NCBI GenBank assembly: GCA_946887045.1
Contig: CAMPKC010000006.1
Location: 1 to 64,000, forward strand
DNA from: an uncultured Sphingobacteriaceae bacterium
GTDB lineage: Bacteria > Bacteroidota > Bacteroidia > Sphingobacteriales > Sphingobacteriaceae
Direction of reading: 5' to 3'
DNA: 64,000 bases
Positions 1,928-12,489 of the stretch are shown here, in pieces; positions within the stretch are counted from its first letter, which is position 1; every line of letters starts with the position of its first letter. A program made the position numbers and the translations under genes. The notes under the pieces were generated by a model. It worked only from the letters and a program-made list of their open reading frames with translations. It was not told where the DNA came from and did not search any database.

Positions 1928-4900
1928 ATGCAAAATTTTTACAGCACTAATCCGGTTACGGAAACACGTTCTTTTATAAAGAATAGTCTTCCGAAATCGA
2001 GAACATTTAAAAAGGCCAGTTTAAAAGCGGGTCTGACTTTAATGTTTCTATTTCTGATTGGGTTTCAATCAGCATTTGCGCACGCCGTTCAGGTAGGATA
2101 CGCCGTTTTATCAAATGGGTTTATCCGTGTTTACATCGAGCACTGGCATGGAGATTATACAACATCAATGTTGGTAAATAACGGAATGAGCATCACTACC
2201 ACCTATGGCAGCAGCACCGTTACGCAGAATGTCAACCCAACGGGAGCATTTAACAACACTGCGTGGAATAACCTTCCTGGTGCGGGATCAGCGATTACGA
2301 TTTTATCTAAAGGACCCAGTGCTAACCAATACAATGACTGGGCATATTATGATTTCGCACCAGCAGCATGTAATGTACCCGTTCAAATTACATTAAATGG
2401 GGGATTAACAGTAGTACTCACAGAGGAATCAACAAATCTTTGGCCTCAAACCATCACGGGAACCTTTACAGATACTGCGGCTCCGACAATAACAACGTCA
2501 AACACAACTGCTTCAGTTTCTTGCAATACACCTGGAACAACTGTAAACTTCTCAGCTACAGCACTTGATAACTGTACCGCTAATCCAGCTGTTACATTTA
2601 GCATCGCACCAGGATCATTTTTCCCGGTAGGAACAACCAATGTTACCGCTTATTCAACGGATGCCAACGGAAACGCGGGTCAGTTAACTTTTCCGGTAAT
2701 AGTTTCGGTAATTGATAATGTTAAACCAAACTTATCTGTACCAGCTGCTATTATCGTTAATAATACTCCCGGAATATGTGGTGCAACAGTTTCATATTCC
2801 GCTCCCATAGGAACGGATAGTTGCTCTACTCCAACGACAGTACAAACTGCTGGCTTACCTAGTGGATCGGTTTTCCCCGTAGGAACAACCGTCAATACTT
2901 TTAAAACTACGGATGCAGCCGGAAATTTCACTACTGCAAGCTTTTCGGTAACCGTTACTGATAATGAAGCTCCTTTCAATGGAAGCGGTGTAGCAATCGT
3001 TTCTATTCCCGCGGGTCGCACCTACGGATGGTCTCCATATACATTTTCCTTCGCTAATCAGGTTCCTGCAGGCTCGATTATCACAGGTGTAGACCTTGCA
3101 TACTCAGCTGTAGATCAGGGATGGGGAGGAACAGGAGACTGGACAAACATGCAGGTTGCCGGCACCCGTATCGGAGGGAACCAATTATTTCACCATACAC
3201 AATCGTTCAATATAAACTATAATGGAAGCATTCCTAATTATACATATGGTGCGTCAAACAACACATTCGCCATGTACTTTACCGGATATTCAGGCTGGGT
3301 AGGATATTTCCATGGGGGAACAATGACCATCCACTATGAAAAAGACATTCCAACGGTAACTGCAGAATGTTCTGCAAAGGTCACTTCAGCGCCTAGTGCG
3401 AAAGATAATTGTGAAGGACTAATTACCGGAACTACTACCGATCCATTATCGTATTCTGCACAAGGAAATTATGAAATCAACTGGACATTTAAAGACAGCA
3501 AAGGAAATTCCTCAACAGCAAAACAAAAAGTTGTAGTCAAAGACATCACCGCACCAGTTGCTCCGGTACTTGCAGATGTAACAGCAGAATGTTCTGCCAC
3601 AATATCGATCCCTACCGCTATCGATAACTGCGCAGGTACAATTACGGGTACAACAGCTGATTCTCTTACTTATTCAAGTCAGGGTACACATGTAATTACC
3701 TGGAACTTTAACGATGGAAACGGAAATATCTCTACGACTACCCAAAATGTGGTTATAAAAGATATTACAGCACCAGTTGTTCCCGCTCTTACTAATGTAA
3801 TTACTGAATGCTCTGCTACAGTATCTGCTCCAACTACAACAGATAATTGTGCTGGTATCATCACAGGAACAACGTCAGATGCCCTGACCTATACAGCTCA
3901 AGGCTCTAATGTTATCACCTGGAACTTTAACGATGGAAACGGAAACACAACTTCGGCGACCCAGAACGTAATAGTAAAAGATATTACAACTCCTGTCGTG
4001 CCTGTTCTTACTGATGTTATTGCCGAATGTTCTGCTACAGTATCTGTACCAACCACTACTGATAACTGTGCGGGTACAATTACAGGAACCACGTCAGATC
4101 CCCTGACTTATACAACTCAAGGTTCTTACCTTGTTACCTGGAATTTTAACGATGGAAATGGAAATGTAACTACAGCGACTCAAAAAGTAGTGGTAAAAGA
4201 CCTTACCGCTCCCGTTGCTTTAGCGAAAAACATTTCGGTAACACTTGTAAATGGATCCGCGTCAATTACTGCTGCATCTATAGACAATGGCAGCAATGAC
4301 GCTTGCGGTATCCAGTCTTTGTCTATTGACAAATCTAACTTTAATTGCTCAAACCTTGGATACAACACGGTTATACTTACTGTAACTGATGTAAACGGAA
4401 ATGTGTCTTCAGCTTCCGCGATCGTGAATGTAATCGGTGTTACACCGGTTGCTTCCATCACTGAAAGCAGATCTGACAATACGTTCACTGGCCTAGACAG
4501 CAAAACTATCGCTTTAGGTTATGGTGCACAAAAATTAACGCTTACTGCATCCAACAGTACATCTGCGAGCAATGCAACCACTTATGTATGGTCGCCGTCT
4601 GCTGGTTTAAGTAGCACCACAATTGCTAATCCGGTATTTAGTCCAATTGCTGCCGGTTCTTATACATTTAATGTAATTGCAACCAACGAGTTTGGATGTT
4701 CTGCAAGTGCAGCTATAACAATTACTGTTATCGATGTTCGCAGTGGAAATAAAGGCGACAAAGTATTAGTATGCCATAAAGCAAATAACAAATGGACGCA
4801 AATCAGCGTAAGCGGAAATGCAGTGAACGTTCATTTAACAAATGGTGGTTATTTAGGTGCTTGTAATGCTCCGGCTACAACTGCTGCTGCTCCATCAAGT

Positions 4901-5200
4901 GATCTTGCTCTTACCAATAGCTTGACTGTAGGTAACTCAAATACATTATCTGCTTATCCAAATCCATTTGCAGGTCAAACTACGGTAACTTTCAAATTAG
5001 TTTCAGATCAGGCTAATGTATCATTAGATCTATATGATTTGAAGGGAATAAAAGTTAAAAATGTTTACTCGGGTTCTGCGAATGCATTACAAGCGTACTC
5101 ATTTAGTTTTGACGGTTCAACTCTGGCGTCTGGCGTTTATTTCTTCAAGTTAAGTGGAAATAAGTTGGATTTGAATTTCAAAGTTATTGTAAACCAGTAA
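1928..5200 (+). CDS. T9SS-secreted multidomain surface protein with HYR/Ig-like repeats
   Basis: A 1090-residue exported protein. A long basic N-region precedes the hydrophobic signal core at about residues 36-50 (LTLMFLFLIGFQSAFA). An unrecognised domain follows (about 51-180), then two HYR-type modules with VPVGTTNV/FPVGTT-like loops (about 185-345), an unrelated beta-rich segment with GWSPYTFSF and GYFHGGTMTIHYEKD (about 355-475), and four near-identical 73-74-residue HYR-like repeats beginning AECSA (about 476-765). After these come an Ig-like and a PKD-like module, a small KVLVCHKANNKW...HLTNGGYLGAC motif (about 940-975) seen in many secreted proteins, and a C-terminal type A sorting domain (AYPNPFAGQTTVTFKL to the last residue). 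The sorting domain predicts export by type IX secretion, then attachment to the surface or release. Its ligand is unknown. Confidence 0.85.
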   Translation: MQNFYSTNPVTETRSFIKNSLPKSRTFKKASLKAGLTLMFLFLIGFQSAFAHAVQVGYAVLSNGFIRVYIEHWHGDYTTSMLVNNGMSITTTYGSSTVTQNVNPTGAFNNTAWNNLPGAGSAITILSKGPSANQYNDWAYYDFAPAACNVPVQITLNGGLTVVLTEESTNLWPQTITGTFTDTAAPTITTSNTTASVSCNTPGTTVNFSATALDNCTANPAVTFSIAPGSFFPVGTTNVTAYSTDANGNAGQLTFPVIVSVIDNVKPNLSVPAAIIVNNTPGICGATVSYSAPIGTDSCSTPTTVQTAGLPSGSVFPVGTTVNTFKTTDAAGNFTTASFSVTVTDNEAPFNGSGVAIVSIPAGRTYGWSPYTFSFANQVPAGSIITGVDLAYSAVDQGWGGTGDWTNMQVAGTRIGGNQLFHHTQSFNINYNGSIPNYTYGASNNTFAMYFTGYSGWVGYFHGGTMTIHYEKDIPTVTAECSAKVTSAPSAKDNCEGLITGTTTDPLSYSAQGNYEINWTFKDSKGNSSTAKQKVVVKDITAPVAPVLADVTAECSATISIPTAIDNCAGTITGTTADSLTYSSQGTHVITWNFNDGNGNISTTTQNVVIKDITAPVVPALTNVITECSATVSAPTTTDNCAGIITGTTSDALTYTAQGSNVITWNFNDGNGNTTSATQNVIVKDITTPVVPVLTDVIAECSATVSVPTTTDNCAGTITGTTSDPLTYTTQGSYLVTWNFNDGNGNVTTATQKVVVKDLTAPVALAKNISVTLVNGSASITAASIDNGSNDACGIQSLSIDKSNFNCSNLGYNTVILTVTDVNGNVSSASAIVNVIGVTPVASITESRSDNTFTGLDSKTIALGYGAQKLTLTASNSTSASNATTYVWSPSAGLSSTTIANPVFSPIAAGSYTFNVIATNEFGCSASAAITITVIDVRSGNKGDKVLVCHKANNKWTQISVSGNAVNVHLTNGGYLGACNAPATTAAAPSSDLALTNSLTVGNSNTLSAYPNPFAGQTTVTFKLVSDQANVSLDLYDLKGIKVKNVYSGSANALQAYSFSFDGSTLASGVYFFKLSGNKLDLNFKVIVNQ
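3365..4200 (+). repeat. Four tandem 219-222 bp coding repeats
   Basis: Each unit starts at a GAATG(T/C)TCTGC core at 3365, 3587, 3806 and 4025, giving spacings of 222, 219 and 219 bases (74, 73 and 73 codons). The last three units are the most alike at DNA level and share long stretches such as TGGAACTTTAACGATGGAAA. They encode the HYR-like repeats of the surface protein. Such similarity allows copy number change by recombination. Confidence 0.85.
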
Positions 5201-5220
5201 GATAACAATTTAAACATAAA

Positions 5221-5261
5221 ACAAGAAGCCCCGTGTCAACAACACGGGGCTTCTTGTTTTA
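5221..5261. terminator. Strong bidirectional intrinsic terminator
   Basis: A perfect 16-bp stem (ACAAGAAGCCCCGTGT paired with its complement) with a 5-base loop spans 5221-5257. It is followed by TTTT on the plus strand and preceded by an A-rich run, so it has a U-tract in both directions. It sits between the convergent surface-protein gene and response regulator gene and should end both transcripts. Confidence 0.9.
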
Positions 5262-5309
5262 TACATCCCTTAGCTCGATATGTCTTAGGAAAATGCTCCC
5301 CGTACTCGC

Positions 5310-5996
5310 TTAGCAAACAAACTTATATCCTATGCCTCTAACTGTTTGCAGGTAACTTGGAGAATCCGGATTATCCTCAATTTTTTTGCGCAACCTTACA
5401 ATATGCATATCAAGCGTCCGGGTGTTTACGTCAGAATTATATCCCCAAACAACCATCATAAGTTCATCGCGATGAATTACTTTGTTTGCGTTTTTAAGAA
5501 AATAAAGCAAGATGCGATTTTCAAGTATCGTCAATTCAATTTTCTTACCATCCTTCAAAAGAGAATGAGTGTTTGGATGATGCTCTATGTTATTAAATCT
5601 GTGCATCTCAGTTTTCTCATTATTAACAACAAATTTTATCTTGTTTTCAATAAGAGCAACCAGTACATCCATGTTAAATGGTTTAGTTACATAATCGGAC
5701 ACACCAAAGTTGTACGCATCAATTTTATCTACATCCTGAGCTTTGGCAGTCATCATTATAACAACCCCTTCAAAACCCTTTGCCCGGACATTCTTACATA
5801 CCTCAGAGCCTTCTTTCTCGGGCAGCATCCAGTCCAGTAAAACGATGTCAGGATTTTCTCTCATAATCATTTCTTCTGCTTCGGCTCCATTTGAAGCTTC
5901 GATGATTATATAACCCTCGGTCTGCAAACGATGAGAAACAAGGAAACGAAGATTTTCATCATCTTCAACAATTGCAACTTTAATGTCTAAATTCAT
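5310..5996 (-). CDS. OmpR/PhoB-family response regulator
   Basis: A 228-residue regulator. The receiver domain (residues 1-120) has the acidic pair E11/D12-D13, the phosphoacceptor D55 in DIVLLDWMLP, a Thr in VIMMTAK and the Lys of YVTKPF. The C-terminal winged-helix domain (about 130-228) has the usual RTLDMHIVRLRKKIEDNP...LQTVRGIGYKF signature of DNA-binding trans_reg_C domains. The start codon overlaps the stop of the upstream sensor kinase as ATGA, so the pair is translationally coupled and the kinase is its likely phosphodonor. The third gene of the operon, an S9-like lipoprotein, lies further upstream. Target genes cannot be read from this window. Confidence 0.95.
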   Translation of the reverse strand: MNLDIKVAIVEDDENLRFLVSHRLQTEGYIIIEASNGAEAEEMIMRENPDIVLLDWMLPEKEGSEVCKNVRAKGFEGVVIMMTAKAQDVDKIDAYNFGVSDYVTKPFNMDVLVALIENKIKFVVNNEKTEMHRFNNIEHHPNTHSLLKDGKKIELTILENRILLYFLKNANKVIHRDELMMVVWGYNSDVNTRTLDMHIVRLRKKIEDNPDSPSYLQTVRGIGYKFVC

Positions 5997-7666
5997 ATCT
6001 TCTGTTCGTATGGTAAAATTATAGTAAACTCCGATCCAATCCCAACTTTACTTTTAACAAAAATATCCCCCTTCATAAAGTTAACCAGTTCTTTACAAAA
6101 AGCCAACCCAAGGCCGACGCTGCCCTGCTGATTATACTGGTTTTGTATCCTGTAAAACTTTCTGAAAATGTTCTCCATTTCCTCTTTAGGTATTCCGATC
6201 CCCTGATCGGAAAACCTAAAAACAATTTTACCTCTTTCGAGAGATATATCTATATGCTGGTACTTACGCTTGGGCAAAGAGTATTTATATGCATTCTCTA
6301 TCAGATTCTGAAATATACTTGCCATTAACACCGGATCCGATTTAAAAACTTCTACTTTCCTGATGTTATATGTAATTTCAAATTCCGGGTATTTGACATG
6401 ATAAGCATCAATTAGATTCTGCACAAACACTTCGATATTAATTTCCTCGTTCTTTATTTGAATTGACTGATTTTCAATCTGAGTAAAGGAAAGAAGCTTA
6501 TTCATCAAATCATTCAACTTATCTGCTTCTTCATCAAGAATTTTACCATACCTAAAGCGCTCCTGATCGGTTATGGTATTGGCGCTCCTGATGTTATTTC
6601 CGGCGATCTTAATAACACTTAAAGGTGTTTTAAATTCATGTGTAAGATTATTGATGAAATCATATTGTAACTTAAACATTCGGCTATTGATATGAAGATT
6701 TCGATATATTAGATAAGCAATAAAGCCTAAAATGCCGTAAATAATTAAGATTGAAACTGCTACAGGTAAAAACCTCCTGTTTATTTCTTTAGATAAAAAG
6801 CTTCTTGAAGAGCTAAAAAACAGTTTATAATCCGCAAAAGCCCCCGAAAGAGCTAAATCAGTATTTAACAAATCAGGATTTGTATCAACAGATTCAAAAA
6901 CGAGCGGGCGGATACTTATCTCCTGATAAAGTTCCGGATGATTGTTCTTTATAGTCAGTTTAAATGGATTTAAACGAAATGACAAAATATCCTGTTCGTA
7001 TATAGCCGAAGGTTTGAGATCTTTAAACATTAAATCCCTGAATATCCGAACCTCCTCTTCACGAGGGATGTTCATTAAGGTGATTCTGTTGTGTGTTATG
7101 TTGTAGAAAACCTCAAACGATTTATCGCTTGAAAGGCTTTGAGAGGTATCAACCGACTCAATATAGGTCGAAAATTTTATTGCCATCCGGTTAAACTCAT
7201 CAATGGCTCTGATAGCAGGCTTTTTATCCGGACTTTTATATATAACCACCGAATCAGGCGGCACTTCTCTGCCGAGTTGATAAATAGCCTTTGGCACAAT
7301 TGAAAAATTATTTATTCTGAAAGCATTCGGTACAAGCCGATTACTAATTTGAGTGTCGTAAAAAATTATACGACTAACGAAGGCATACTTTCTTAATACG
7401 GTATCGGCGTATTTAATTACTGAAGCAGAATCAAGATAGCCTTGATAAAAAGAGATTTCAGGAATTCTGTTTAGAAAAAAATCATTGTAAGGTTTTACCG
7501 TTTCTTCCAGTACAGAGATCTTTTGGGTGTTAAACTCATTCTCGACATACTTCTCGGTAAAATTTCGGGCTAAAAGGAGAGCAATAACTAACGAAGCGCT
7601 AATAAGTACCAGAAAGCTAACATTAAGAAGGTTATTTTTCCGGTAATATGCCTTAAAGCTTCCCAT
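5993..7666 (-). CDS. Transmembrane sensor histidine kinase with large periplasmic domain
   Basis: A 557-residue kinase. A first membrane helix (about 14-33) and a second (about 300-320, VAVSILIIYGILGFIAYLIY) flank a periplasmic domain of about 265 residues with no recognised fold. The cytoplasmic part has the H-box NNLTHEFKTPLSVIK with the predicted phosphorylated H343, then an ATPase domain with N-box QNLIENAYKYS, G1 box DQGIGIP, F-box and GSVGLGL. There is no clear HAMP domain between TM2 and the H-box. It starts 8 bp after the S9-like lipoprotein gene and overlaps the response regulator gene by 4 bases, so all three form an operon. Signal unknown; the periplasmic domain and the lipoprotein are the obvious sensing parts. 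Confidence 0.93.
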   Translation of the reverse strand: MGSFKAYYRKNNLLNVSFLVLISASLVIALLLARNFTEKYVENEFNTQKISVLEETVKPYNDFFLNRIPEISFYQGYLDSASVIKYADTVLRKYAFVSRIIFYDTQISNRLVPNAFRINNFSIVPKAIYQLGREVPPDSVVIYKSPDKKPAIRAIDEFNRMAIKFSTYIESVDTSQSLSSDKSFEVFYNITHNRITLMNIPREEEVRIFRDLMFKDLKPSAIYEQDILSFRLNPFKLTIKNNHPELYQEISIRPLVFESVDTNPDLLNTDLALSGAFADYKLFFSSSRSFLSKEINRRFLPVAVSILIIYGILGFIAYLIYRNLHINSRMFKLQYDFINNLTHEFKTPLSVIKIAGNNIRSANTITDQERFRYGKILDEEADKLNDLMNKLLSFTQIENQSIQIKNEEINIEVFVQNLIDAYHVKYPEFEITYNIRKVEVFKSDPVLMASIFQNLIENAYKYSLPKRKYQHIDISLERGKIVFRFSDQGIGIPKEEMENIFRKFYRIQNQYNQQGSVGLGLAFCKELVNFMKGDIFVKSKVGIGSEFTIILPYEQKI

Positions 7667-7674
7667 GAACCTCT

Positions 7675-9564
7675 CTACTTAAGATTTGCAGCAAAGAACT
7701 TCTCAAGCTCATTAAAAAACTCTAGTCGCGTCTCGGGATTTCTAAAGTTGTAATCCCTGCTTTCTTTGGTAATATAGGTAATCGGAACTTTGCGTTTCTT
7801 TAATTCCTTAACAAATTGGTTCGTCTCATTAACATTCACTCGAAGGTCCTTTTTGTCCTGCGCTATTAACAAAGGGGCTTTAATTCTGCTTGCATGAAAA
7901 ACCGGCGAAACTGCTCTTAACTGATCCATTTCTTTCTCAGGATTTCCTACCATTTCATAATACATTTGCAATGTAGGCTTAAAGTGGGGTGGAACAGCTT
8001 TGATGTAAGCAAATAGGTTGAGAAATCCGGATTGAGATGCGCCACAGGCATATAAATCAGGTTTAAAAGACAGTGCATGCAAAGCACTATATCCGCCAAA
8101 ACCATACCCGTAAATGCCAATTCTCTTTTTATCAGCAATACCTTCATCGATTAACCATTTTACCCCGTCGGTGATGTCATTCTGAATATCAGTGCCCCAT
8201 TTTTTAAATCCTGCAATCCAAAATTTCTTTCCGTATCCTTTTGACCCCCGATAGTTAACCTGAAAAACAGCATATCCCCTGTTTGCCAGGAACTGAACTT
8301 CAGCGCTAAAACCCCATGAATTTCTGTGCCACGGACCGCTCCCTCCGTGAGGAATTACGATCAGCGGAAGATTTTTTGGCTTACGCCCGAGAGGTAAAGT
8401 CAAATACCCGTCCAGCTTTAACCCATCACGCGATTTAAACGAAACCGGCTTCATGCTACACATTTGATCCTCCGGGATAGAAGGATTTATATCACTTAGC
8501 TTAACTAGCTTTTTTGTTTCCGGCGCATAATGGTAAAAAGCACCTGGTGTTTTATCGGTAAATGTTCTGATAATAAATTGTTGTTCTACCAAATCATTGT
8601 CAGTAACCCTGATTTCGGTATTTGGGATTAGTCCTTCCAACTGTTTGTAAAAAGCCTTGACGGAATCATTGAGATAGATACGCTCCCTTTTCCAGGTTTC
8701 GAAGCCGGCAAATAAAATCTTGTGATCCGACTTTGAATAACCTGCTTCAACGATGTCGACATCCGGATGTGACACAATTACCTTAGTCTCTTTACCAGTA
8801 ACGCAATCAAATTCCACCAATGCTGTTTTATCTCTATCAAAATTAGAAAGCGCATAAATTCGGCTTTTTATAGTCTTGCAAAACCCGACAGGCGAAATCT
8901 TATTCTTAAAATTATTCGTAATTACCGGTTTGAACTTATCCTTTTCAGAGTTTCTGTAAAGCAATGTTTCGTTTACTCCATCACTTGCAAGCGCTAACCT
9001 AAGCATCCCATACTCATCTGCAAACCAATTGATTATATTGCCAGGATTCATTTCGGCAAGGGTTAACGTACCATCATTTATATTTAAACGATAGGCATCA
9101 AAAATAGTCGAGTCACGGTTATTGAGCGCGATCAATATTTGGTTATTAATAACATTGTCGTAGTCGATAAGTCTTACACGTACTGAATCTACCGGCAGCA
9201 AACCTCTGAAATTTTTACCCGTTTTAGATACCGCGTATAAATGAGCACTTTTACTCCGCCCGTTGTCGTTCATAAACAGGAGGTCATCGTTATTTACCCA
9301 ACAATAAAACGTGGTATTGTACTCGGTTTCGTTGGTTACACGCGTTACATTTCTCCCGTCGATGGTCTGAACAAAAATGTTCATCCGATTTTTGTAGGGT
9401 TGCTGATAAGATATATACTTGCCGTCGGGAGAAATTTTGAAGGTCGTTTTTACAGGATTCTTGAAAAAATCTTCAATAGGAATTTTATCCGCACTCCGCT
9501 CAAAAGCACAAGCCGACAACAGGAAAAACCCGATAACACTTAACAACTTCAACTGCTTCTGCAT
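7675..9564 (-). CDS. S9 prolyl-oligopeptidase-like lipoprotein, probable pseudoenzyme
   Basis: A 629-residue protein with an SPII signal (lipobox LLSAC, C19). Residues about 30-380 look like the beta-propeller of S9 peptidases (for example FYCWVNNDDLLFMND). The alpha/beta-hydrolase domain follows from about 385 (LPLIVIPHGGSGPW, FQVNYRGSKGYGKKFW). The nucleophile elbow, normally GxSxGG, reads GYGFGG: the Ser position is G488. The catalytic His, normally EGHGFR, reads RDYNFR with Y605. Only the Asp (D573, in DKKDLRV) remains. Peptidase activity is therefore unlikely although the rest of the fold is well kept. The gene heads an operon with a sensor kinase (8 bp gap) and response regulator, which suggests a binding or sensing role (inference). 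A frameshift is not the cause, since the domain reads through intact. Confidence 0.85.
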   Translation of the reverse strand: MQKQLKLLSVIGFFLLSACAFERSADKIPIEDFFKNPVKTTFKISPDGKYISYQQPYKNRMNIFVQTIDGRNVTRVTNETEYNTTFYCWVNNDDLLFMNDNGRSKSAHLYAVSKTGKNFRGLLPVDSVRVRLIDYDNVINNQILIALNNRDSTIFDAYRLNINDGTLTLAEMNPGNIINWFADEYGMLRLALASDGVNETLLYRNSEKDKFKPVITNNFKNKISPVGFCKTIKSRIYALSNFDRDKTALVEFDCVTGKETKVIVSHPDVDIVEAGYSKSDHKILFAGFETWKRERIYLNDSVKAFYKQLEGLIPNTEIRVTDNDLVEQQFIIRTFTDKTPGAFYHYAPETKKLVKLSDINPSIPEDQMCSMKPVSFKSRDGLKLDGYLTLPLGRKPKNLPLIVIPHGGSGPWHRNSWGFSAEVQFLANRGYAVFQVNYRGSKGYGKKFWIAGFKKWGTDIQNDITDGVKWLIDEGIADKKRIGIYGYGFGGYSALHALSFKPDLYACGASQSGFLNLFAYIKAVPPHFKPTLQMYYEMVGNPEKEMDQLRAVSPVFHASRIKAPLLIAQDKKDLRVNVNETNQFVKELKKRKVPITYITKESRDYNFRNPETRLEFFNELEKFFAANLK

Positions 9565-9794
9565 AAAATTAACGACCCCTTCCCTACTGGAGATACAAAG
9601 AAGGTTTAAAATACTAAAATATGGCTTTTCTAATTTTCAACAAGTAACAATTAGAATACAGCTAGTTTGGAACAGTTTACAATATCTACTATAAGAAAAA
9701 AACATAATAGAAAATGAAAAGTAAGCATTTTCGTTATCTTTATCAATACAGGAACAATAACGCTCTGTTTTAAATTTTTATCTCCTTTACTATC

Positions 9795-11606
9795 ATGAAA
9801 GCACTGATTTTCATCCTCTTTCTGGTGTCTTCATCATTTCTCTGTTTTGCGCAGACAAATGAAGATATGCTTGCCGGACAGTACGTTCAAAGTGGAGAGT
9901 TTGAAAAAGCGCTGAACATTTATCAAAAGTTATTTAATCAGGGAAGAGATCATGCACAGTATTATGATGCATATTTCAACACTCTGATTAAACTAAAAAA
10001 GTACGACGAAGCTGAAAAATTGGCTAAAAAAATGGCTGGAACAAACAAAGGCAATTACAGCTACCAGATAGATATTGGCAGGGTTTTGCGAGAGCGGGGC
10101 CAGCTGGAAAAAACCGCAGAATTGTATAACAACCTCATAAAAAGTCTTCCTAGAGATGAAATGGCTATACGAGACCTTTCAATAACCTTTTACAGAGCAG
10201 ATGCCTATGAGTTTTCGGTTAAAACACTACTAAGCGGCCGTAAACTATTGAATGACGAAACAGCATTTTCTTTTGACCTGCTAGCGCTTTACAGATATCA
10301 GAAAAACAAAGAGATGCTGGTTTATGAATATGTAAACATCTTAGGTAAAGACGCAAACGTGCAATTAGTAAGCCAGGCTAAAAACGTCTTTTCTACTCTC
10401 TTTGAATCTCCAGACGACTATGATGTCTTAAAATCGGCTTTGCTAAGAAAGCTGCAGAAAGACCCTCAAAACATTGCCTACTCTGAATTGCTTGCGTGGC
10501 AATATATTCAGCAGAAAGAGTTCGACATGGCCTTAAAACAGATTATTGCCCTTGACAAACGGCTTAAAGAAGACGGCGACCGGGTTTACGATTTAATTAC
10601 CATTTTCATTAAAAACAAAGCTTACGAACAGGCAGTTGAGGGACTTGAATATTTGTTGACAAAAGGACCTTCCGGTCCTCATTATGTTCCCGCGAAAATC
10701 CAGATTTTGTACACAAAAAATCAACAATTAATCACGGGGAAATTTAGTCAGGAGGAGCTGGTGCAGTTGGAAAAAGACTATTTAAATCTGCTCCAGGAAT
10801 TTGGAAAAACAAGAAACACTGTATTTGCTATCCGGCAATTGGCTTCACTCCAGGCTTCTCATTTAAATAAAGCCAAAACTGCCGAGGTACTTTTGGAAGA
10901 AGCACTGAAAATACCGGGACTGCCGGCAGCTATGGTAGGTGAAATTAAACTGGAACTCGGCGATATTTATATTTTAACCGGAGAAAAATGGGAAGCAGCC
11001 CTCATATACGGACAGGTAGAGAAAGGTTTCGCAAACGAACCCCTGGGCCAGGAAGCAAAGTTTAAAAATGCCAAGCTTTCTTATTATCAGGGAGATTTTA
11101 TCTGGGCGAAAGCTCAACTTGATGTTTTAAAAAGCTCAACATCCCAACTTATTGCTAATGATGCCCTAAACCTTAGTTTGTTGATTGCCGAAAACACCGA
11201 ATCAGAAATCGACACCAACGCCTTAAGAATCTATGCAAGATCTGACTTTTTAATCTTTATTAATCAATACGACAAAGCCCTGAAAACACTCGATAGCATC
11301 AAAATACGTTATCCTGAAAACTCTCTTGAAGATGATATTTTAATGTCAAAGGCCCGGATTTTTCAAAAGCAGAACCTTCCTGATAAGGCGATTGAACAAC
11401 TGAATTTAATTGTAACCAGTCACAGTACTGATTTGTGGGCAGACGATGCGCTCTTTATGCTGGCAGAAATCTATGAAGTCTCGCTAAACGATAAAACGAA
11501 AGCATCTGATTATTATCAAAAAATCATCATAGATTTCCCCGGCAGTCTTTATGTCACTGAGGCGAGAAAGCGTTTCAGACTTCTAAGAGGCGATAATCCT
11601 AGCTAA
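9795..11606 (+). CDS. Exported tetratricopeptide-repeat protein
   Basis: A 603-residue protein with a signal peptide (MKALIFILFLVSSSFLCFAQ, cleavage after about residue 20). The rest is almost entirely helical TPR-like repeats, for example GEFEKALNIYQKLFNQG near residue 32, YDEAEKLAKKMAG near 70, and a C-terminal set with DKAIEQLNLIVTSHS...ADDALFMLAEIYE and DYYQKIIIDFPGSLY that resembles outer-membrane-assembly TPR proteins (YfgM/BamD-like spacing). It probably acts as a periplasmic scaffold; the partner is unknown. A TATCTTTA at 9735-9742 may be its -7 element. A small DUF4286 gene and rfbC follow on the same strand. Confidence 0.8.
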   Translation: MKALIFILFLVSSSFLCFAQTNEDMLAGQYVQSGEFEKALNIYQKLFNQGRDHAQYYDAYFNTLIKLKKYDEAEKLAKKMAGTNKGNYSYQIDIGRVLRERGQLEKTAELYNNLIKSLPRDEMAIRDLSITFYRADAYEFSVKTLLSGRKLLNDETAFSFDLLALYRYQKNKEMLVYEYVNILGKDANVQLVSQAKNVFSTLFESPDDYDVLKSALLRKLQKDPQNIAYSELLAWQYIQQKEFDMALKQIIALDKRLKEDGDRVYDLITIFIKNKAYEQAVEGLEYLLTKGPSGPHYVPAKIQILYTKNQQLITGKFSQEELVQLEKDYLNLLQEFGKTRNTVFAIRQLASLQASHLNKAKTAEVLLEEALKIPGLPAAMVGEIKLELGDIYILTGEKWEAALIYGQVEKGFANEPLGQEAKFKNAKLSYYQGDFIWAKAQLDVLKSSTSQLIANDALNLSLLIAENTESEIDTNALRIYARSDFLIFINQYDKALKTLDSIKIRYPENSLEDDILMSKARIFQKQNLPDKAIEQLNLIVTSHSTDLWADDALFMLAEIYEVSLNDKTKASDYYQKIIIDFPGSLYVTEARKRFRLLRGDNPS

Positions 11607-11623
11607 CAATTAATTGCTTTGCC

Positions 11624-11631
11624 TATCTTCG
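11624..11631 (+). promoter_or_regulatory. Bacteroidota -7 promoter element (TATCTTCG) for the DUF4286 gene
   Basis: TATCTTCG fits the TAnnTTTG -7 consensus of Bacteroidota with one mismatch. It ends only 4 bases before the ATG at 11636, so a transcript from it would have almost no leader. Confidence 0.5.
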
Positions 11632-11635
11632 CAGC

Positions 11636-11938
11636 ATGATTCTTTACAACATTACCGTCATTATAGATGAAGGAATTGAAAGCGAGTGGCTAAATTGGAT
11701 AAATCAAACTTTTATCCCAAACGCGATGTCAACTAACCTTCTGGCATCAAGCCGACTTTTAAAAGTGCTGGATTCACCGAACGAAGGTGTTACCTATTGC
11801 CTTCAATTTATCGCCGATAACATCGGGAACTACAATGACTTTAAAAATCTGCACGCAGCTGAAATTTTAGACGCCCATGCTCTGGAATTTAAAAACAAAT
11901 CTGTTTTCTTCAGCTCTGTAATGGAATTTATTGATTAG
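11636..11938 (+). CDS. DUF4286 family protein
   Basis: A 100-residue soluble protein with the DUF4286 pattern: an N-terminal strand MILYNITVIIDE, the segment EWLNWINQTFIPNAMSTNLLASSRLLKV, and a late YCLQFIADNIGNYNDF...LHAAEILDAHALEF. These small proteins resemble ferredoxin-like/ABM-type folds (antibiotic biosynthesis monooxygenase shape), but no activity is known to me. The gene has its own likely promoter just ahead of the start and is followed after 2 bp by rfbC, so the two are very probably co-transcribed. I cannot assign a role. Confidence 0.85.
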   Translation: MILYNITVIIDEGIESEWLNWINQTFIPNAMSTNLLASSRLLKVLDSPNEGVTYCLQFIADNIGNYNDFKNLHAAEILDAHALEFKNKSVFFSSVMEFID

Positions 11939-11940
11939 AA

Positions 11941-12489
11941 ATGACGTTTAAAGAAACATCCATTCCAGGCTTAATTTTAGTTGAACCCAAAGTATTTAGA
12001 GATGACCGCGGGTATTTTTTAGAAAGCTTCAACCGAAAAGCATTTTTCGAAGCTGGCATTAATGCAGAATTTGTGCAGGATAATCAATCGCTTTCAAATC
12101 GTGGAACCTTACGTGGTTTACATGGACAAGCAGATCCCTCTGCACAAGGAAAACTGGTTCGTGTAATTCAGGGCCGAGTAATAGATATAGCGGTAGACAT
12201 TCGGAAGAATTCTTCAACTTTCGGGCAACATGTAAGCGTTGAATTAACCGGAGATAACTTTAAAATGCTTTGGATTCCACCTGGCTTCTTACACGGTTTT
12301 TCAACATTAGAAGACAATACCATTTTCGCGTATAAAGTAACAAGTCTATACGACCGAGCTTCTGAGATCGGAGTCAAGTGGAACGATCCTGACTTAAATA
12401 TCGATTGGGGTATCGGAGAGAATGAAGTGATGCTTTCAGATAAAGATCTGATTTTGCCTTTATTTAAAGATTTTAAAAGTCCATTTTAA
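11941..12489 (+). CDS. rfbC: dTDP-4-dehydrorhamnose 3,5-epimerase (RmlC)
   Basis: A 182-residue cupin enzyme of the usual RmlC length. It epimerises C3 and C5 of dTDP-4-dehydro-6-deoxyglucose on the path to dTDP-L-rhamnose for surface polysaccharide. Visible signatures: FRDDRGYFLESF, QDNQSLSNRGTLRGLHGQ (catalytic His in RGLH), AQGKLVRVIQGRVIDIAVDIR, LWIPPGFLHGFSTLEDN and the Tyr-containing FAYKVTSLYDRASE. The residue after RGLH is Gly in place of the common Tyr (RGLHYQ). It is not beside rfbA, B or D here; it follows the DUF4286 gene by 2 bp. A hairpin just downstream ends the unit. Confidence 0.93.
   Translation: MTFKETSIPGLILVEPKVFRDDRGYFLESFNRKAFFEAGINAEFVQDNQSLSNRGTLRGLHGQADPSAQGKLVRVIQGRVIDIAVDIRKNSSTFGQHVSVELTGDNFKMLWIPPGFLHGFSTLEDNTIFAYKVTSLYDRASEIGVKWNDPDLNIDWGIGENEVMLSDKDLILPLFKDFKSPF

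Follow-up and report, generated by a model that had tools for sequence, protein, structure and literature searches.

The window analysed here, a stretch of 64,000 nucleotides from an uncultured Sphingobacteriaceae bacterium (contig CAMPKC010000006.1), carries three open reading frames in tandem on the minus strand, which encode a lipoprotein with the S9 (prolyl-oligopeptidase) fold, a membrane histidine kinase and an OmpR-family response regulator. We consider it probable that a sensor kinase found throughout the family acquired the S9 enzyme, in a single capture event, as its lipid-anchored accessory subunit, and that catalysis became dispensable in this role. Gene order, family-wide linkage, the grouping of the linked copies in a single clade, a lipidation signal, repeated loss of the catalytic triad and purifying selection are shown by the data; we further infer that the lipoprotein is oriented toward the periplasm, binds the kinase and controls it.

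In the proposed mechanism, a single capture of an S9 serine peptidase, close to the root of the Sphingobacteriaceae, would have joined it to the kinase and its OmpR-type regulator. The lipoprotein most likely lies on the periplasmic membrane face, where it would contact the periplasmic domain of the kinase (approximately 260 residues). Its propeller-hydrolase body would read an envelope signal and in this way set the output of the kinase; the signal could be a peptide-like ligand that it binds, or else the conformation or location of the lipoprotein itself. Because such signaling would have no need for cutting, the catalytic Ser and His could be lost repeatedly while the fold, the anchor and the linkage were retained. 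The repeated loss of the cutting residues from a retained gene suggests that the S9 protein serves the sensor instead of acting as a protease. From the catalytic variants, it would seem that cutting, where it is present, tunes the signal and does not make it.

Conservation and linkage of the three genes

The S9 and kinase genes of the window are separated by 8 bp (7667-7674), and a 4-bp ATGA overlap (5993-5996) joins the kinase frame to that of the regulator. These positions bear out the layout (gap, overlap and coordinates) given in an earlier, sequence-only reading of the same DNA, which had also held that an unrelated promoter between the lipoprotein and the kinase would speak against a common operon. 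With only 8 bp available, no promoter fits between the two genes; a promoter inside the S9 gene, upstream of the kinase, is possible. Promoter-like sites occur at about the chance level over positions 5000-10000 on both strands (20, compared with 15.5 +/- 4.0 in shuffles), and TAnnTTTG, the Bacteroidetes -7 promoter consensus, is not found on either strand of the intergenic region upstream of the S9 gene. On the far side of the regulator, a strong terminator-like hairpin probably marks the end of the predicted three-gene unit (Table 1). The closest named proteins are from Pedobacter sp. P351, at 85% identity for the S9 protein and 82% for the sensor region of the kinase, which points to the Sphingobacteriaceae as the family of the window.

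The kinase is a near-universal signaling module of the Sphingobacteriaceae, whose members are common in soils, in fresh water and in plant-associated communities. Our kinase model matches 296 of 301 genomes of this family (defined as the family of Paradesertivirga mongoliensis, G001/L001; E<=1e-60), and the five genomes with no match, which are also without the S9 gene, are small (1.3-2.4 Mb) and may be incomplete. A single kinase match is present in 295 of the 296 genomes with four candidates scored per genome; when up to 23 candidates were scored, a single match was again seen in 59 of 60 genomes, and the remaining genome had two pieces on two contigs. In a class-wide draw of 198 genomes, the sensor model matches six, all of them Sphingobacteriaceae already present in the family draw, and leaves 192 without a match. 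An order-wide draw was positive throughout (61/61), although all of its genomes were already in the family draw and it is not independent.

From the kinase matches in the family, we chose 100 loci by hand for spread, not at random. All 100 have the regulator downstream of the kinase, and 98 have the S9 gene upstream of it in the same orientation, such that the lipoprotein gene is linked to the kinase and regulator across the lineage, and the three-gene order that the sequence-only reading had proposed to look for in relatives is indeed conserved. Three of the 98 S9 genes are incomplete (a broken frame in L106, a short open frame in L154 and a contig end in L171). The L106 gene (genome G143) appears as two overlapping frames, reflecting either a sequencing error or recent decay. 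Our set of distinct linked copies comprises 122 S9 proteins: 135 read, minus these 3 short ones and 11 duplicates, plus that of the window. With script-chosen start codons, all 121 distinct linked copies measured have an S9-kinase gap between -4 and 25 bp (median 6); the kinase-regulator gap runs from -1 to 283 bp (median 9) and is at least 30 bp in 31 of 121. Judged by gap length, the tie of the lipoprotein to the kinase is no looser than that of the regulator. Given the conserved gene order and the lack of room for a promoter, the idea that the kinase has a lipoprotein partner of its own is well supported.

Linkage was also surveyed from the side of the S9 gene, in the best 80 of 580 S9 loci from a species-genome scan. 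Here, 37 loci have the kinase and regulator and 43 have neither orthologue nearby; the latter are our sample of unlinked relatives. Six of these (L023, L039, L053, L054, L062 and L079) have approximately 1 kb or less of downstream DNA, with less than 200 bp in L023 and L079, and linkage is possible in all six. The 37 linked loci belong to Pedobacter, Mucilaginibacter, Arcticibacter, Daejeonella, Parapedobacter, Hufsiella, Paradesertivirga and Sphingobacterium, eight genera that we take to be members of the Sphingobacteriaceae, or are labelled Sphingobacteriaceae, Sphingobacteriales or Bacteroidetes only, and the 43 unlinked loci are labelled as other groups or as Bacteroidetes only. An S9 tree built without the triad columns, from all 122 linked copies and 25 unlinked ones out of the 43, divides the two groups without exception (FastTree support of 100), and the linked copies hence form one clade.

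The kinase and regulator display the features of an OmpR-type two-component system: a HisKA domain with its H-box (Pfam, 3.7e-9) and a HATPase_c domain (1.6e-23) in the former, and a receiver domain with its Asp (Response_reg, 2.8e-26) and a winged helix (Trans_reg_C, 4.3e-26) in the latter. Hydropathy places the membrane helices of the kinase at approximately residues 11-38 and 297-324, with a loop of approximately 260 residues between them. The sequence-only reading had described a periplasmic domain of about 265 residues with no recognised fold, and this description stands, in that the sensor region of the window has no Pfam family match (E<=1) and the sensor alignment has no PDB sequence match (E<=5). 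An isolated match to DUF4646 (0.0027) in 1 of 14 sensors scanned was judged to be due to chance, as were the other weak matches, all above 0.05.

Catalytic residues and selection

The window lipoprotein contains a Peptidase_S9 domain (PF00326) at residues 417-628 (E = 2.6e-41), and its best structural relative in a PDB sequence search is 5l8s (residues 232-621, 2.3e-35); the PDB relatives include acyl-peptide and dipeptidyl peptidases. From the general architecture of S9 proteins, we take the N-terminal part to be a propeller. The N-terminus, MQKQLKLLSVIGFFLLSAC, is a predicted lipoprotein signal, a signal peptide with a lipobox cysteine at residue 19, and lipidation of the window protein is predicted. 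Its catalytic domain is of the S9 type, but the Ser-Asp-His triad is not preserved, the three positions being occupied by Gly488, Asp573 and Tyr605. Judged by these residues, the window protein is probably a non-peptidase homologue and should not be classed as an S9 peptidase. It shares its catalytic-domain family with the S9 acylaminoacyl and dipeptidyl peptidases (PDB: 5l8s, 4hxe), which are enzymes, whereas the window protein is without the nucleophile and the His. A misaligned nucleophile is ruled out, as the elbow aligns gap-free (YGxSFGG/YGxGFGG) in complete copies. A substitute nucleophile at Ser487 was likewise rejected: residue 487 is Tyr in the window, and of the 89 dead copies without Ser488, 14 have Ser487.

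The triad is intact in 26 of the 122 linked copies and lost in 96, while all 43 sampled unlinked relatives retain it; in our first homologue set, Ser-Asp-His is present in 70 of 120 proteins among the matches listed. At position 488, the linked copies have Gly (79), Ser (33), Arg (7), Asn (2) or Glu (1), and at position 605 they have His in 31 of 122, the rest showing a gap or any of 14 further residues. Ser488 and His605 are each present in 43/43 of the sampled unlinked relatives. Asp573 is retained in 120 of the 122 linked copies, dead ones included, though Ser and His are usually gone. Ser alone is lost in L024, L137, L150 and L152, and His alone in, for example, L086, L087 and L093. Because 26 linked copies keep the full triad, its loss is repeated and secondary; the term dead peptidase used in the sequence-only reading fits the window protein, with its Gly488 and Tyr605, but does not hold as a rule for the linked copies.

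Counting on the S9 tree gives 11 changes of triad state, and a tree of the kinase and regulator gives 12; if losses are irreversible, the counts are 15 and 14, respectively. Several inner branches are weakly supported, which makes the exact number soft. On the kinase-regulator tree, shuffled triad states give 23-25 changes in the five of 50 shuffles reported. An artefact of a tree built from the S9 protein itself was rejected, given that its triad columns had been dropped and that the kinase-regulator tree still yields 12 changes. In 13 of 14 S9-bearing genomes searched with the S9 alignment, no homologue other than the linked gene reaches E<=1e-40. In the exception, G067, a second, unlinked S9 homologue (G067:C1:2397910-2399769, E = 6.4e-148) is present alongside a linked dead copy.

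The dead S9 gene is a maintained gene under purifying selection. Of 27 close pairs compared for the ratio of nonsynonymous to synonymous substitution rates (dN/dS), 12 were unusable owing to saturated S9 dS and 15 had a finite dS. The ratio is 0.025-0.065 in the dead pairs (n=13) and 0.040 and 0.056 in the live pairs (n=2), with 7 of the 15 usable pairs being rough at a dS of at least 1.9; the 8 pairs with dS below 1.7 comprise 6 dead pairs at 0.045-0.065 and the 2 live ones. Finite values for the kinase range from 0.013 to 0.066. The S9 protein is 618-647 residues long in the copies counted. Among copies with a residue in the corresponding column, the lipobox Cys is present in 100% of both dead and live linked proteins and in 31% of unlinked ones, and a stricter lipobox pattern fits 109 of the 122 linked copies, compared with 14 of the 43 unlinked ones.

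Within the dead copies, the mean share of the commonest residue is 0.67 in the hydrolase half versus 0.52 in the propeller. Residues 478, 510, 511, 527, 575, 581, 605 and 620, together with 327, are conserved in live and unlinked copies and variable in dead ones. Except for residue 327, these sites lie in the hydrolase half, as expected if active-site constraints were released.

Candidate roles of the lipoprotein

Several observations weigh against an accessory-subunit role. Judging from their residues, 26 of the 122 linked copies look catalytically intact, and the hydrolase half of linked copies is less conserved than in unlinked relatives, as expected if the fold alone is needed or if selection is partly relaxed. 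The stable surrounding gene order accounts for part of the linkage between S9 and kinase, although general synteny does not explain triad loss under purifying selection; of 37 long linked loci, 31 have a TPR homologue divergently oriented upstream, and 36 have a DUF4286 gene close by. After controlling for the kinase core and regulator, S9 distances correlate with sensor-domain distances at 0.53; under matching controls, the value for the core is 0.16, a contrast that favors a link to the sensor. The regulator, however, reaches 0.44, and the closeness of this value to that of the sensor makes the co-evolution signal weak; as mirror-distance pairs are not independent, the test is only mildly informative. 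Finally, five genomes (1.7-2.0 Mb) keep the kinase and regulator with no S9 match (E<=1e-40), and hence the kinase can persist without the lipoprotein; the core of these kinases has changed too (5 of 84 near-invariant sites).

These five S9-less loci (L120, L122, L193, L194 and L195) amount to a natural lipoprotein knockout. The TPR, DUF4286 and rfbC genes still lie beside the kinase in four of them, and L194 stops at a contig edge. In a 40-row tree that includes four of the five S9-less kinases, these four form one nested clade, sister to the S9-bearing, triad-intact lineage L101 (100/100). This position rules out the S9-less kinase as the ancestral state, and the absence of S9 therefore represents a loss. 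Of the 17 sensor sites that are nearly invariant, five (Y74, D79, S80, R202 and K281) are changed in all five S9-less kinases. No S9-bearing kinase (n=121) is changed at more than 4 of them, and these kinases average 0.41 changed sites in the sensor and 0.94 in the core. The clade represents one loss event on a long branch, and its sensor changes may in part reflect fast evolution. The changes nevertheless count in favor of a link between lipoprotein and sensor, and the five sites suggest a candidate contact patch, nominated rather than proven.

For the S9 protein as an accessory subunit, two main sub-mechanisms can be envisaged, in which the signal would be either a ligand or the lipoprotein's own placement; the peptide-capture model of the sequence-only reading is one of them. 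In the first, which we entertain tentatively as one possible route, the dead cleft would still bind a peptide or a piece of the cell wall, and the lipoprotein, once loaded, would switch the kinase in the way that a binding protein acts on a receptor kinase. The S9 fold supplies a ready peptide cleft, and the near-universal retention of Asp573 and the stronger conservation of the hydrolase half relative to the propeller are consistent with its continued use. However, positions 510, 511 and 575, which show little or no variation among unlinked and live copies, are variable in dead ones, and residue 575 is two residues away from Asp573; hence, a single shared ligand is not evident.

In the second, the amount, location or folding of the lipoprotein would itself be the signal, in the manner of QseG or, as we presume, RcsF. 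The lipid anchor is conserved in the linked copies, in line with such a role. At least two acidic residues at +2 to +6 are found in only 11 of the 109 lipobox-bearing linked copies; if the acidic surface-export signal of Bacteroidetes applies here, this low number fits a periplasm-facing protein. The precedent is described in excerpts of PMC6075780 and PMC12691602, according to which QseG is an outer-membrane lipoprotein that is encoded in an operon with the kinase QseE and the regulator QseF, binds the periplasmic part of QseE and activates it. The two-domain body of 629 residues, however, exceeds what this role would need, and envelope-status sensing, too, is no more than a tentative possibility.

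A further scenario, speculative and on balance doubtful, concerns the ancestral protein: a kinase-bound S9 lipoprotein would have bound its substrate to signal and cut it to end the signal, with cutting dropped in about a dozen lineages to leave a receptor subunit. If this were the case, the signal evoked by a given ligand would be long with one type of orthologue, live or dead, and short with the other, and an enzyme-to-receptor conversion would be in progress across one bacterial family, with both forms in the same operon. Orthologues with and without the triad, all in one operon setting, provide a natural series that makes the idea of a pseudo-enzyme as receptor subunit testable.

The S9 protein could alternatively be an output of the system, as an envelope peptidase that is under the control of the regulator and kept in the operon for co-regulation. 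Enzymes are often encoded next to their regulators, and the 26 linked copies with a triad would suit such an arrangement, but the other 96 have lost Ser and/or His (rarely Asp), and dead pairs are under purifying selection. Triad loss is, moreover, seen only inside the linked clade, with no case among the 43 sampled unlinked relatives, and an active paralogue of the same subfamily offers no explanation in the 13 of 14 genomes with no second homologue (E<=1e-40). We regard this role as unlikely. Neutral decay, in which a synteny-locked enzyme gene would survive as a carrier of translation signals for the kinase, could draw on the stable neighborhood described above, but is highly improbable and already disfavoured, as the low dN/dS of dead pairs, the near-constant length and the fixed lipobox Cys rule out a decaying gene, and the gene is removable, one clade having lost it while keeping the kinase and regulator.

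Units of lipoprotein, kinase and regulator are established, as are S9 accessory subunits in animals. The statement in the sequence-only reading that no system of this shape had been described was too strong, since QseG-QseE-QseF and LpqB-MtrB-MtrA are both published. Like the window locus, the QseE-QseG-QseF system of Enterobacteriaceae has a lipoprotein gene in an operon with a kinase and a regulator. It differs from that locus in that the regulator of the latter is of OmpR type and the partner a putative converted peptidase; QseG presumably has no S9 fold, and we take QseF to be an NtrC-type regulator. In the MtrA-MtrB-LpqB system of Actinobacteria, as in the window, regulator, kinase and lipoprotein form a conserved three-component unit. 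MtrA is presumably of OmpR type, and the window regulator scores well, though below the cut-off, against the MtrA model. As reported in excerpts of PMC5845573 and PMC12338722, LpqB interacts with MtrB and reduces MtrB activity in M. smegmatis; lpqB lies downstream of mtrB (excerpt of PMC12338722), whereas the window lipoprotein gene is upstream of its kinase. An LpqB-type Pfam match is absent (E<=1; the near-identical copy P0001 was scanned), and the matches are only of the S9/alpha-beta-hydrolase type. By analogy, the window lipoprotein may thus work like those of the LpqB and QseG systems, and it does not appear to be a member of the LpqB family.

DPP6 and DPP10, presumably type II membrane proteins, resemble the proposed window protein as S9 proteins acting as accessory subunits of a membrane protein. 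They differ from it in being eukaryotic and in having a channel as partner, and would represent a parallel conversion, not an orthologue. The abstracts of PMC4350108 and PMC4873792 describe these S9 relatives as accessory subunits of Kv4 channels with no peptidase activity in mammals, and the fly DPP orthologue as both an ancillary subunit and an active peptidase. If the accessory-subunit reading is correct, this type of conversion, from S9 peptidase to accessory subunit in membrane signaling, extends to bacteria. Neither a lipoprotein-kinase-regulator system built on the S9 fold nor a study of this Sphingobacteriaceae kinase was found in open-licence PMC full text. What is apparently new, in that it did not appear in this literature, is the S9-based combination in a bacterium, as a near-universal family module with repeated catalytic loss.

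Features of the locus and its surroundings

Table 1. Positions of the three-gene unit, its predicted functional residues and its flanking elements in the window.
Feature	Position	Strand	Details
S9 (prolyl-oligopeptidase) fold lipoprotein gene	7675..9564	-	629 amino acids; open reading frame and Pfam
Lipobox cysteine, residue 19 (LSAC)	9508..9510	-	Read from sequence
Propeller part of S9 protein			Residues ~30-375; division is our own
Alpha/beta-hydrolase part of S9 protein			Residues ~376-629; division is our own
Residue 488, nucleophile position of GxSxG elbow	8101..8103	-	Gly here (YGYGFGGYS)
Residue 573, triad Asp	7846..7848	-	Retained
Residue 605, triad His position	7750..7752	-	Tyr here (ESRDYNF)
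Membrane histidine kinase gene	5993..7666	-	557 amino acids; HisKA and HATPase_c
Predicted periplasmic sensor domain of kinase	6773..7561	-	Residues ~36-298; hydropathy
His343 of kinase, predicted phospho-acceptor	6638..6640	-	H-box HEFKTP; role inferred from HisKA match
OmpR-family response regulator gene	5310..5996	-	228 amino acids; receiver and winged helix
Asp55 of regulator, predicted phospho-acceptor	5832..5834	-	LLDWM (LLDW from residue 53); role inferred
Terminator-like hairpin between regulator and convergent HYR gene	5216..5262	-	20 pairs; minus strand only
Divergent intergenic region between S9 and TPR genes	9565..9794	.	Open reading frame calls

Beside the operon, positions 9795-12489 hold a divergent TPR gene together with genes that we take to be DUF4286-like and rfbC-like; rfbC is found in 24 of the 37 long linked loci. 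It is possible that the S9 gene and the divergent TPR gene share a control region. At the other end, convergent with the operon, positions 1928-5200 encode a large HYR-repeat protein with a Por secretion (type IX secretion system) C-terminal tail (Pfam). A HYR homologue occurs near 1 of the 37 long linked loci, which marks this gene as a local neighbor.

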